Source: Chitinophaga pinensis
GTDB lineage: Bacteria; Bacteroidota; Bacteroidia; 2-12-FULL-35-15
DNA length: 38,748 bases
Assembly (NCBI GenBank): GCA_945885475.1
Contig: CAMCYR010000028.1
Coordinates: 1-38,748, forward strand
Reading direction: 5' to 3'
Positions within the stretch are counted from its first letter, which is position 1, and the number at the start of each line of letters is the position of its first letter. Of the stretch, positions 32,476 through 37,025 are shown one piece after another. The notes beneath the pieces are model-generated. The model searched no databases and had not been told where the DNA came from. It saw only the letters and a program-made list of their open reading frames with translations. A program made the position numbers and the translations under genes.

Positions 32476-32666
32476 GCATTCATCTGTGGACTTCACAGAC
32501 AAAATCTCGAACCAGTTACTAAAGGACATTGAAATACTTTCGGAATTAAAACGATATATTTCAAGCCATTAGTTGCCAAATCTTGACCTTTAACCATTGG
32601 TCTTTTTGTTTTGTATTTTATATGCCTGAACAAAGTCAAAGATGAGACTGACATCTTTTTTTTCTT

Positions 32667-33893
32667 TCACAACGCGACTATTTTATAAATCACATTTATT
32701 TTGTCTTTATTCCTTTGCTTATATGCAACAAATACATTCTTTTCATCAACTGGTTTAATAACTGCAAATTCTGCTAAAGCATCTTCTACGGAAACAAATT
32801 TTGTAGTGATAATTTTTCCTTCGGGGTCTCTTTCTTGCAATCCAATCCGGGCATTAAATTTATCACCTTTCTTTACAGTCTGATCCCAAACAATAACAAT
32901 GTTTCCATTTGGAAGGCTTGTAATCTGTGGATGTTTTGCAGAAGGATTAGTTGATACACTATCCCTTTGGGAAAAAGTTTTTCCTAAATCTTTGGAATTG
33001 CAATAAAACACACCTTCACCGCCTCCCATAGTGTACCATGCAAAGTGCATACCTATTTTGTTTTGTGTTTCAGTTGGTCCGGTATGCGGACAGCCATTAA
33101 TTACCCAATTGTCGGCACTAATTCTTACAGGCGAAGAGAAAGTCTGTCCTCCATCAGTTGAAACAATCTGAACCATATCACGAATAGAGTCATTTATTAT
33201 ATCACGGTAAGAGGCGTGGACGTTCCCTTTATCATCAATAAACAAATCAGTACGACAACATGGGCAGCATGTTTCACCAATGGCTTTCTCATTTTGAAAA
33301 CCATTCTTTCCATTTGTTTCAGCGCAAAATAAAGTTGAGCCTTCTTTGGTTTTATCACCCCGGTTATCAAGCCAAAGAACCATTGCTTCTCCATTGGGAA
33401 GAAGTTCCATATCGAAATAACGCTGATCATAAGCCGAAGTGTCTTTAACAAGAGCAATGGGATCAGCCCATGTTTTACCTTCATCAAAAGATTGGGAATA
33501 ATAAACTAAGCCTGAATATTTACTTTTAGGATTTGAATTACTAACTCCCCACATGGCAATAACTCCACCATCGGGTTTAAAAATAATTTTAGGCAGATTT
33601 TCTCCATGTGGATGAATATCCTTACTTGAAGAAATTTCAATTGGCTTTGCAAAAGTACTTCCCTTATCCTCAGATATGGCATAACACATTATTGCCACGC
33701 TGTCGTTAAGTTCCTTTACCCAACTCATAACTGTATTCCCTTTATTATCTGTTGTAAGATAAGGACATGAAGTTTTAGAAGTTGTATCGGTAGCAACAGT
33801 TTTTTCTGAATACGAATATGTTTGTTCTTTTGGTCTGTCAGTGCATGAATACATTGATGAAATCAGCACACATGCAATAAGTAGTTTTCTCAT
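32667..33893 (-). CDS. Asp-box (BNR) beta-propeller lipoprotein with CCPCC motif
   Basis: With the start at the ATG at 33893 (MRKLLIACVL) the 408-residue product has a lipobox SMYSC (C17), placed 4 nt after the TonB receptor stop; an upstream in-frame start inside the receptor gene is rejected. Four Asp boxes SxDxGxTF/W occur at 74-81, 135-142, 245-252 and 300-307, giving a sialidase-type six-blade propeller. The unusual feature is a Cys cluster ETCCPCCRTD (CCPCC at 209-213), with GCPHTGP at 268 nearby. The sialidase catalytic arginine triad is not evident, so a glycosidase role is doubtful. With a Cys-rich small protein and a TonB receptor in the same operon, binding of a metal or metal complex at the outer membrane is the favoured inference. 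Confidence 0.8.
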   Translation of the reverse strand: MRKLLIACVLISSMYSCTDRPKEQTYSYSEKTVATDTTSKTSCPYLTTDNKGNTVMSWVKELNDSVAIMCYAISEDKGSTFAKPIEISSSKDIHPHGENLPKIIFKPDGGVIAMWGVSNSNPKSKYSGLVYYSQSFDEGKTWADPIALVKDTSAYDQRYFDMELLPNGEAMVLWLDNRGDKTKEGSTLFCAETNGKNGFQNEKAIGETCCPCCRTDLFIDDKGNVHASYRDIINDSIRDMVQIVSTDGGQTFSSPVRISADNWVINGCPHTGPTETQNKIGMHFAWYTMGGGEGVFYCNSKDLGKTFSQRDSVSTNPSAKHPQITSLPNGNIVIVWDQTVKKGDKFNARIGLQERDPEGKIITTKFVSVEDALAEFAVIKPVDEKNVFVAYKQRNKDKINVIYKIVAL

Positions 33894-33897
33894 TTTA

Positions 33898-36264
33898 TTA
33901 TTTTTTTCCTGTGAAATTATACTGCAAACCAAAAACAAAAGTACGTGGAGGAGCAGGTGTAAAATTAGTACGACTGGTTGAAGCGTTACCTCTTGTAGCA
34001 TTAAAAGCGTATAATTCATCAGTAGCGTTCATTACATTACAAAACACTTCAATGCCTTTCCATTGATAACCTATTCTAACGTTAAGCACACTTATTCCTT
34101 TAGCACCAAAGACACCTTTATCATCATATTTTACATTGTTAACCTGATCCTGATACCAAGAGCTCATATGCTGCCATTCTACTCCAACTCTTAATCCTTT
34201 TACATATTTGGGTTTGTAAACGATTTCGCTGTTCGCAATCCATGAGGGAGCGCTTGGCATCATTTTACCATTTACATCTTTAACAAGATCCGTTGATTTT
34301 GTACTTAATATAAATTCATCAAAACGATGCATTGCGTTTGTTCCGCTGAAACGAATCATCCACTCAGAAGTTGGACGAAAGGTTGCACCGTATTCAACAC
34401 CTTGATGAGTGGTTTTTCCGGCACTCTGATAATCCGTAGAGTTATCGGGCTGGCGAATACTAAGCAATTCGTTTCTTCCAAGCAGCTGATAAAAAGTAAT
34501 ATCCAAATCCAGTTTATTTCTGAATAAACTTACCCAACCACCTGCTTCATAATTGGTGAACTGTGCAGGTGTTAAATTATAATAGAATTCGGCAGGATTT
34601 GTATTTGGCTTCTTAACGAAGATGGAAGTAAGTCCCGGAGGCGAAAACCCTTTTGCATAATTCGCATATATTCCTGCATTGGATGTTATTTTATAAGTAA
34701 CACCTACTTTAGGAGAAAACTGCTCAAAGGATTTGATACCGGAGCTTGCATCTAAATAATTGTTGTAATCAAATGACATTACATCGTAACGTCCTCCCAA
34801 AGTTATAGATAACTTTTTTATTGGTTTTATTTCTGCCTGAGCATACGCTGCATAGTTTAAAAGTGTAGCAGAATAATCCGCTAACTTAATATCAGGTCGT
34901 TCCTTACTGATTGTGTATTTCTCAACTGATAATCCGTCCGGACGTAATTGAGCATCAAGGTCGATCTGGTAAGCGTTGTATGTGGTTGGAGAATTATCAA
35001 GACTTACACCTGCTATAATTTTTGTTCTGATTGGTTTAATATCAGCAGCATGTTGTAAAATAAAACCCTTACTTGTTAGACTGTTAACATTTACTTGTCC
35101 TGTTGCAGTTGGCTTTCCTGTTGTCCAACGAATAGAATATGCAGGGTTTTGTCCAATGGAATTATCCCTATAAAACAAATGTAATGTGGTATTATTGTTT
35201 TCATTCCATTTATGTTCAACTGAAAATCGAGTTCGGATTGATTTAACTTTTCTATAAGTAAAATCAGTTGAGCTTACGTAATTTCTTGAATAAAAAGCAA
35301 CACTATCAACACTTCCTCCTGTATGAGAATAATAATCGTTAAATGAACCTGCTAAAATCAATTTTGTTTTTTTTGTTAGATCATAATCGAGACGTCCATT
35401 GATGGAATTTTTATCATAATCAGAATTAGTCATCCACCCATTGCGTTGTTGAGCATAAAAACCACCAACATAAAAACCTAATTTTTTTGTGATCAATCCT
35501 CCTGCTCCATACTGCGCTCGTTTATAACCAAAGTTGTCAACTTGAACACCAATCTTTGCAGTTAATACAGCAGTAGGTTTTTGAGTAATAAAATTGATTG
35601 CTCCTCCTACTGCTTCAGGACCATATAGTGATGAAGCAGGACCTTTAACAACTTCAATATTTGAGATTGCAAAAATATTCATCTCAATTAAAGCGTTGTG
35701 ATTAAAAACTCCCATCGGTCGCATTGGAATTCCATCTTCCATGTACAAATAATAATTACTTGTACCCATCGGTTGCCTGATAGACATTCCATGCTGTTCG
35801 TTGTTCAAGTTAAGCATTGCAACTCCTGATACTTTATTAATTAGCTCTGCTATAAGAGTTGGCTTTGTATCATTTATAGTTGTTGCAGATATTTTACTGA
35901 TTGCAACAGGAATGTCCGACCGTGTTTGAGCATCTCGGCTTGCTGTTACTAAGACTTCCTGCATATTAGTTGTCGAAGGTGCAAGAGCGATGTTGAGATT
36001 TTGCCCCTGCTCTGCTTTGAACCCCTCTGCTTTATAACCGATGTATCGAACCTCGATACTATCAAATGGCTGTTCATTAGAAATTGTGAACTGACCATTG
36101 CCATTAGTAGTAATACCTATTTGAGTGTTGGGAATTACAATTGTTACCCCAGCGAGTGGTTCTTTTGTTACTTTGTCAAATACTTTACCCGAAATTGTAA
36201 TTTGAGCAAAGGCAATATTGATGAACATCAGTAATGATGCCATCAAACAATATATTTTTTTCAT
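33898..36264 (-). CDS. TonB-dependent outer-membrane receptor
   Basis: A signal peptide (LLMFINIAFAQ) precedes a carboxypeptidase-regulatory-like domain (ISGKVFDKVTKEPLAGVTI...VRYIGYKAE). The plug (MQEVLVTASRDAQ, PTLIAELINKVSGVAML, VEVVKGPASSLYGPEAVGGAINFIT-type motif) and a 22-strand barrel follow, including the conserved FSPKVGVTYKI and the terminal VFGLQYNF. At 788 residues it is of normal size for receptors of siderophores, cobalamin or metal complexes. It has no SusD partner, which argues against glycan uptake. The lipoprotein gene starts 4 nt after its stop, and a small Cys-rich protein gene lies 84 nt upstream in the same direction. The substrate is not visible; context suggests a metal or metal chelate. 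Confidence 0.93.
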   Translation of the reverse strand: MKKIYCLMASLLMFINIAFAQITISGKVFDKVTKEPLAGVTIVIPNTQIGITTNGNGQFTISNEQPFDSIEVRYIGYKAEGFKAEQGQNLNIALAPSTTNMQEVLVTASRDAQTRSDIPVAISKISATTINDTKPTLIAELINKVSGVAMLNLNNEQHGMSIRQPMGTSNYYLYMEDGIPMRPMGVFNHNALIEMNIFAISNIEVVKGPASSLYGPEAVGGAINFITQKPTAVLTAKIGVQVDNFGYKRAQYGAGGLITKKLGFYVGGFYAQQRNGWMTNSDYDKNSINGRLDYDLTKKTKLILAGSFNDYYSHTGGSVDSVAFYSRNYVSSTDFTYRKVKSIRTRFSVEHKWNENNNTTLHLFYRDNSIGQNPAYSIRWTTGKPTATGQVNVNSLTSKGFILQHAADIKPIRTKIIAGVSLDNSPTTYNAYQIDLDAQLRPDGLSVEKYTISKERPDIKLADYSATLLNYAAYAQAEIKPIKKLSITLGGRYDVMSFDYNNYLDASSGIKSFEQFSPKVGVTYKITSNAGIYANYAKGFSPPGLTSIFVKKPNTNPAEFYYNLTPAQFTNYEAGGWVSLFRNKLDLDITFYQLLGRNELLSIRQPDNSTDYQSAGKTTHQGVEYGATFRPTSEWMIRFSGTNAMHRFDEFILSTKSTDLVKDVNGKMMPSAPSWIANSEIVYKPKYVKGLRVGVEWQHMSSWYQDQVNNVKYDDKGVFGAKGISVLNVRIGYQWKGIEVFCNVMNATDELYAFNATRGNASTSRTNFTPAPPRTFVFGLQYNFTGKK

Positions 36265-36348
36265 TGTCTTTTGGTTTATCTAAATAATAAATAAGTAAAT
36301 ACTGAAAAGAGAAAATTTCTCAATTCAGATTAAATAAAAATATGAAGC

Positions 36349-36717
36349 TTAAACCTTTGGGGGATGAAAAATGGAGAATGTCGGTGGGGATGTTGTTAAA
36401 CTTTTGAAAGGAGTAAAATCTCTTTCCAATAATAAACTTGGTTGAAATTGAAATGACGATTTGTTCTGACAAAACATTTGAAATTCTTTAATGTCTTTTA
36501 AACTGCTTGCAGGAGATTGCTCTTTTTTTTCTTCTTCTTGCAATTGTTTTTTTAAATGACAACTTCCTTTACAGCAGTTATTTTTAACTTCCTTTTGAAC
36601 GCATAGGTTTTTTGAAATATAGTCTTTGTTGATTTGAAAATTAATAAGAATCATCATCTTACTAAATGACTGGAGTATGATTCCTGTTCCAACTAATATG
36701 ACAAATAGGTATTTCAT
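36349..36717 (-). CDS. Small Cys/His-rich membrane-anchored protein linked to the TonB receptor
   Basis: The 122-residue protein has an N-terminal hydrophobic helix (YLFVILVGTGIILQSF), then C39, a conserved-looking motif NNCCKGSCHLKKQL (C48, C49, C53, H54), a charged Lys/Glu linker and a C-terminal part ending IFHPPKV. A CCKG-x-CH cluster just outside a membrane helix suggests a metal-binding site in the periplasm. From memory, similar proteins with C-x-G-x-CHLKK motifs sit upstream of TonB receptors in other Bacteroidota, but I cannot verify this here. A -7-like box TAGATTTA lies 6 nt before the ATG (36724-36731). Confidence 0.7.
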   Translation of the reverse strand: MKYLFVILVGTGIILQSFSKMMILINFQINKDYISKNLCVQKEVKNNCCKGSCHLKKQLQEEEKKEQSPASSLKDIKEFQMFCQNKSSFQFQPSLLLERDFTPFKSLTTSPPTFSIFHPPKV

Positions 36718-36779
36718 TGAATGTAAATCTACTGTTTTTTTGTCTTAAAATCTTATATTTTTAGTACTTTAGTATCTAA

Positions 36780-37025
36780 ATGCGTGTAAAATTAATACCA
36801 ACTTTTATCCTTCTTGGTCTTGAGAATTATGATGAAAAGATTGATGATTGCCTTGAGTTGCTTTTAAACCTTGATAAATACTACAAAACAAAGAATACGG
36901 AGATAAAACAAAAGATAATTGGTTCGGTCTTCCCTGAAAAGTTGGTTTTTGAAAATAACGAGTATCGAACCACAAAATTGAATGATGTTGTGACTCTAAT
37001 TTGCCCGACAGATAAGGGTTTTTGA
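36780..37025 (+). pseudogene. 3' remnant of a large serine recombinase
   Basis: The 81-codon frame matches the C-terminal end of Bacteroidota site-specific serine recombinases: LLLNLDKYYKTKNTEIKQKIIGSVFPEKLVFENNEYRTTKLNDVVTLI and a final DKGF. The catalytic domain, recombinase domain and zinc ribbon (several hundred residues) are gone. An in-frame TAA sits immediately before the ATG. It marks an old integration event at this locus. Confidence 0.75.

Follow-up and report, generated by a model that had tools for sequence, protein, structure and literature searches.

To our knowledge, only a few receptors have been shown to import copper across the outer membrane. The Pseudomonas TonB-dependent copper transporter OprC/NosA binds the metal through C143, M147, H323 and M325 (PMC8610252), an OprC-type receptor with CxxxM-HxM is reported in the flavobacterium Bizionia argentinensis (PMC11213822), and the Bordetella copper receptor CrtA represents a family with two conserved His and no conserved Cys or Met, in whose operon plan a PepSY_TM gene follows the receptor gene (PMC12914433; CrpH, PMC13038864). 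The XusAB and BtuBG systems of Bacteroides combine a receptor with a seven-bladed propeller surface lipoprotein, and XusB and BtuG serve as surface lids acting on siderophores and on B12, respectively (PMC13142918, PMC10404256). Here we describe a three-gene operon in a 38,748-nucleotide stretch of Chitinophaga pinensis DNA (assembly GCA_945885475.1, contig CAMCYR010000028.1; hereafter, the window), which encodes a small CxGxC protein (P0002), a TonB-dependent receptor (P0001) and a beta-propeller lipoprotein (P0005). Judging from these genes and their relatives, it is likely to be a TonB-dependent copper acquisition operon; it is best read as a system that would work like OprC in substrate and like XusAB and BtuBG in architecture, and that belongs to neither family. 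No description of the operon was found in the open-licence PubMed Central literature, covered mostly at the level of titles and abstracts.

The genes of the operon are as follows.

36349-36717, minus strand: P0002, 122 aa, small CxGxC protein with an N-terminal hydrophobic stretch, C39...C49-x-G-x-C53 and a C-terminal FHPP
33898-36264, minus strand: P0001, 788 aa, TonB-dependent receptor with CarbopepD_reg_2, plug and barrel (Pfam); plug motifs NEQHxMxIRQ and FNHN
32667-33893, minus strand: P0005, 408 aa, BNR beta-propeller lipoprotein with CCPCC (conserved core CxCC) and GCPHTGP

The three open reading frames (ORFs) are separated by 84 bases (P0002-P0001) and 4 bases (P0001-P0005), in agreement with the coordinates and the tight minus-strand unit given in an initial annotation of this DNA. 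The start of P0005 was placed at 33893 (lipobox, MYSC); the listed ORF, 450 aa long and starting at 34019, would run into the receptor gene. Unlike in SusCD systems, the third gene encodes a BNR_2 protein, and no SusD was present among the flanking ORFs or in a Pfam scan of five proteins, as had been noted initially.

A scan of named genomes with a subtype profile returned 205 relatives, the best 80 of which were used for the named-locus counts. In 70 of these 80 loci, the P0002-type, receptor and propeller genes follow one another on the same strand as in the window (an unfiltered ORF count; the ORF filter hides seven small genes under antisense ORFs and gives 63/80), so that the gene order, whose conservation the initial annotation had proposed to check, proved to be kept. 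Another 6/80 loci contained the receptor and propeller only, giving 76/80 in which a TonB receptor accompanies a propeller as in XusAB and BtuBG (PMC13142918, PMC10404256); in four of the six (L114, L115, L130 and L171) a contig end falls inside the receptor, and in L109 and L153 P0002 was not recognised. P0002 and the propeller without a recognised receptor were seen in L118 and L125, and the propeller alone in L117 and L123. The taxa represented were Chitinophaga, Niastella, Segetibacter, Flavobacterium, Pontibacter, Rufibacter, Adhaeribacter and others. The triple was also found in L009, L011, L012 (propeller cut by the contig end), L045, L046, L047, L049, L050 and L052, and with one insertion in L048. 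The three-gene set is maintained across many soil and water Bacteroidota. At L109:3082-3540, in a metagenome-assembled genome labelled Fibrobacteres, another Cys-rich protein that the P0002 profile fails to recognise takes the place of P0002.

Both the P0002 and the P0005 family are common, since their profiles matched in 152 (E <= 1e-5) and 104 (E <= 1e-15) of 392 genomes of the phylum, respectively; among 41 genomes (the source genome and relatives), matches were found in 22 and 17, many of the P0005 ones being weak. Genome contigs were scanned for propellers with the pattern [GAS]CPH[TSV]GP[STA][MLE][TAV], and flanking stretches were taken for 20 places in each of four hit sets rather than for every match. 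Propellers of the wider family mostly stand outside the triple: among the 30 propeller loci without P0002 that were examined, a P0001-family receptor was present in one (L082).

Residue conservation was counted with the window protein included and with receptors below 600 aa, small proteins below 100 aa and propellers below 350 aa excluded. C39, C49, G51, C53, F117, P119 and P120 were invariant in 66/66 small proteins. The CCKGSCH motif of the initial annotation was retained in part: C49 and C53 were kept in all 66 proteins, whereas C48 occurred in 2/66 and H54 in 24/66, and the conserved motif is the smaller C39..C49-x-G-x-C53. The P0002 family matched no Pfam or NCBIfam family beyond stray single weak matches (0 NCBIfam families in 24 members, a result that covers the HYC_CC_PP small proteins only if the release includes that model). 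At L016:6302-9693 and L028:3339-6287 a P0002-family gene lies beside a different TonB receptor, which in L016 adjoins a weak DUF2946 match.

In the receptor, M150, H158, M160, H189, H405 and H620 were invariant (71/71), and H646 and M669 were each present in 70/71. Like OprC/NosA (PMC8610252) and CrtA (PMC12914433), P0001 is a TonB receptor with copper as its putative substrate, and in a profile alignment its FNHN occupies the plug loop that carries CxxxM in the OprC type, placing metal-type residues in the same loop. In contrast to OprC, its plug has NEQHxM and FNHN in place of CxxxM, the only Cys of the protein are at positions 6 and 742, and a propeller is encoded alongside (PMC8610252). 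The stretch aligned with the HxM of the OprC barrel wall reads HKW, and H351 was found in 50/71 receptors. Membership in OprC/NosA was rejected because both the plug CxxxM and the barrel HxM are missing, and membership in CrtA because M150/M160 and H158/H189/H405/H620 are present in 71/71; P0001 thus stands apart from the CrtA family through its conserved Met and its five conserved His, four of them invariant and one nearly so (PMC12914433). Among known structures, the receptor profile was nearest to PqqU/YncD and siderophore receptors, closer to these than to SusC, and the structural model of the receptor (83.8) matched PqqU best. P0001 shares a carboxypeptidase-like N-terminal domain with XusA (PMC13142918; 9gbc, E = 2.6e-18 against the receptor profile). 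In the triples of L045, L050 and L154 this domain of the receptor is Cys-rich, a possible further metal site, and on the sister contig the receptor gene is broken into two ORFs (L009:1705-4071).

C210, C212 and C213 of P0005 were invariant in 81/81 propellers. These residues lie outside the scan pattern, whereas the invariance of C268, P269, H270, G272 and P273 in the same 81 is partly by construction because they are in it, and C268 and H270 are not free evidence there because the pattern contained CPH. In 28 more divergent propellers found by profile, C210, C212, C213 and C268 were among only ten invariant columns, and H270 was not invariant. C.CC or CC.C arose in 222 of 20,000 shuffles of P0005, so that the Cys motif alone is weak evidence; it is conservation, not mere presence, that makes it real. 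The first Cys of the CCPCC noted initially, C209, was kept in only 23/81, while the other three were retained throughout. The Cys clusters of the small protein and the propeller are accordingly among the most conserved positions, the opposite of the lack of conservation that was to count against a metal role.

Pfam assigned P0005 to BNR_2 (PF13088) above cut-off and matched this domain in 40/40 homologues at E <= 0.01; the propeller of the initial annotation was thereby upheld, while its Asp box (PF02012) was weak and below cut-off. DUF4374, the XusB family, was not matched in Pfam scans of P0005 and the 40 homologues, and membership in the XusB family was rejected for this reason. The model of P0005 (pLDDT 89.5, pTM 0.87) predicts a propeller fold. 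VIA-align matched it to many propellers, among them CylK (Z 32.5, rmsd 3.5, 348 aligned), PLL lectins (Z about 31, rmsd 2.7, 309 aligned) and YncE (Z about 26), and XusB and BtuG structures were absent among the matches listed; these matches show the fold only. A lipobox Cys was present in 75/81 propellers, five of the six without it being from Flavobacterium, and two adjacent acidic residues within seven positions after the lipid Cys were found in 7/75, a criterion that may not suit Chitinophagia. P0005 thus differs from the propellers of XusAB and BtuBG in being a BNR_2 protein with a Cys cluster and without a clear export signal, and its operon in having the extra CxGxC protein (PMC13142918, PMC10404256). 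Thioredoxin-fold (TlpA-like) genes occurred at 6/30 loci of propeller paralogues versus 2/20 controls. CDCCQT-type paralogues beside a thioredoxin-fold lipoprotein-like gene were seen in L053, L054, L055, L056, L058 and L078.

Neighbouring domains were checked by Pfam on representatives and then counted through profiles of neighbour clusters; they included MbnP, CCP_MauG, HMA, NosL, NosD and a P-type ATPase with HMBD, and further multicopper oxidase, SCO1, nos_propeller, PepSY_TM and YtkA. With a copper marker defined as at least one of MbnP, MauG, HMA, Nos, Cu-ATPase, multicopper oxidase and SCO1 in the fetched stretch, markers were found at 20/35 loci with P0002 only (Fisher p 7e-6), 4/11 loci with both families (p 0.010) and 8/30 loci with the propeller only (p 0.015), versus 0/20 control stretches from the same genomes; the p-values are indicative only, because the families were chosen after looking at the neighbourhoods. 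Seven of the 35 P0002-only loci (L010, L023, L027, L086, L088, L089 and L100) have receptors of one cluster. That of L010, the only member searched singly, matched OprC (6fok) at E = 2e-16; CxxxM and HxM are present in all seven, and in the L010 alignment both coincide with those of OprC. No receptor of this OprC-type cluster was found in the 11, 30, 80 or 20 other loci; the small protein is therefore partnered in one setting by a receptor type known for copper and in the other by the type in the window. This partner receptor is the strongest copper link for the operon, a link that is indirect but consistent. No CxGxC-type small protein is mentioned with the Bizionia argentinensis receptor in the consulted parts of that report (PMC11213822).

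Several loci place the triple itself next to such genes. NosZ-, NosD-, NosF- and NosY-like genes lie upstream of it on one strand in L048, and L154 has, on one strand, a partial NosL-like ORF, NosD and nosF-/nosY-like ORFs followed by the small protein, receptor and propeller. HMA and barrel genes precede the three in L112 and L179, and MauG and a barrel gene lie upstream in L108. In L092 and L099 a P0002-family gene and a receptor with the EQHxM motif are followed by PepSY_TM in the usual place of the propeller, resembling the CrtA plan (PMC12914433). Some propeller paralogues (L053, L054 and L055) occur with Cu-ATPase and multicopper oxidase genes. MbnP/MbnH (PMC3621798) are frequent neighbours of the P0002 family, outside this operon, and neither MbnP nor CCP_MauG was matched by Pfam in the three operon proteins. 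The source genome has two MbnP genes away from the window (G000:C4:73081-76356, L216; G000:C16:11176-11733), one of them near another TonB receptor.

In the mechanism we propose, P0001 would import copper, ionic or weakly chelated, across the outer membrane and select it through plug-loop H158xM160 and H189 and barrel H405, H620, H646 and M669. P0005 would bind copper, probably as Cu(I), through the thiols C210/C212/C213 and C268, and would act either as a donor to the receptor on the cell surface or as an acceptor of its copper in the periplasm. P0002, predicted to be membrane-anchored, may bind Cu(I) with C39/C49/C53 and pass copper towards copper enzymes. Candidate clients are cytochrome oxidase here, where a COX2 match is present, and N2O reductase in some relatives; NosZ was rejected as a client in the source genome, which gave no match. 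What the sequences show directly is the genes, their order, the conserved residues and the neighbours; the metal and its redox state, the direction of transport, the location of the proteins and the hand-over are inferred from these. We lean slightly towards a previously undescribed Bacteroidota copper import module made up of the NEQHxMxIRQ/FNHN receptor subtype, a Cu(I)-binding CxCC + Cys propeller that captures or accepts the metal and a membrane-anchored CxGxC chaperone shared with OprC-type receptors; as part of it, the chaperone would, with a chance a little above even, mark copper import phylum-wide. If correct, this would allow copper import in Bacteroidota to be recognised from sequence, make the P0002 family a marker whose role is directly testable and reveal, in some bacteria, a route of copper supply encoded next to the N2O reductase genes. 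It would also correct the naming of such BNR_2 proteins, which we expect automatic annotation to call sialidases.

Several findings weigh against copper import. Copper markers were found near only 5/80 named triples (p = 0.58 versus control), which speaks against a tight copper context of the triple itself, and most named triples adjoin unrelated genes; the marker families were picked after the neighbourhoods had been inspected, and the controls number only 20. P0001 lacks the CxxxM of OprC, model confidence falls below 50 over plug stretch 153-158, the source genome has no NosZ match, and the P0002 homologues of L016 and L028 have other TonB receptors as neighbours, whose substrates are not known.

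Within the copper reading, the propeller could sit over the receptor as a surface lid and capture a chalkophore or another copper complex, as the order of receptor and propeller lipoprotein in one operon (like BtuBG and XusAB; PMC10404256, PMC13142918), the XusA match of the receptor profile and the lipobox Cys in 75/81 would suggest. We regard this as possible though doubtful: an acidic pair in just 7/75 gives no export signal that can be recognised by this criterion, the lipobox Cys is missing from 6/81, and the thioredoxin-fold neighbours of paralogues suit a periplasmic thiol protein. These three observations favour a propeller inside, and the operon plan one outside. A cargo other than copper, whether a different metal of soft or borderline character (zinc, silver-like) or a chelate that is metal-free or carries iron, is unlikely. 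In its favour, His/Cys sites are also compatible with Zn(II), PqqU/YncD and siderophore receptors are the known structures closest to the receptor profile, and PepSY_TM, which follows the receptor in L092 and L099, is used in ferrisiderophore as well as copper uptake; however, Met ligands are unusual for Zn(II), and the neighbours are OprC-type receptors, MbnP, MauG, HMA, nos, SCO1 and Cu-ATPase.

The Cu-ATPase and multicopper oxidase genes beside paralogues in L053, L054 and L055 would fit copper defence, with the thiol proteins there to bind up or detect surplus copper and the receptor in a minor role, but a TonB receptor, an import device, is present in 76/80 named loci and P0002 relatives adjoin OprC-type importers, making this reading quite improbable. 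Least probable is a glycan-use locus in which a sialidase-like hydrolase feeds a SusC-like receptor. P0005 has the BNR propeller domain that recalls GH33 sialidases, and Foldseek matched its model to sialidases among other propellers; no PDB sialidase, however, matched better than E = 0.017. Sugar use was rejected because no SusD is present, the receptor is nearest to PqqU/siderophore receptors and Cys are among the most conserved positions. The soft-metal role that the initial annotation preferred to sugar use thus appears to be supported, for copper, by the neighbourhoods of both families, uptake being better backed than sensing.

Upstream of the operon lie two further features.

36718-36779, 62 bases: intergenic region between the P0002 gene and the HMA-gene remnant, with putative promoters for both
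36780-36822, plus strand: HMA-gene remnant, the initial 14 codons of a gene that diverges from P0002 and encodes a secreted HMA-domain protein

The ORF created at the join (36780-37025) had no Pfam match, and a search of the source genome, made without a positive control, gave no match to the HMA gene elsewhere. In the sister genome G021 the HMA gene is intact (L009:4587-5105) and divergent from P0002. Over 32485-36822, agreement between the window and the sister contig L009 is 97.5%; it ends abruptly inside the HMA gene, and the join at 36822/36823 may reflect a rearrangement, inserted DNA or a faulty assembly.

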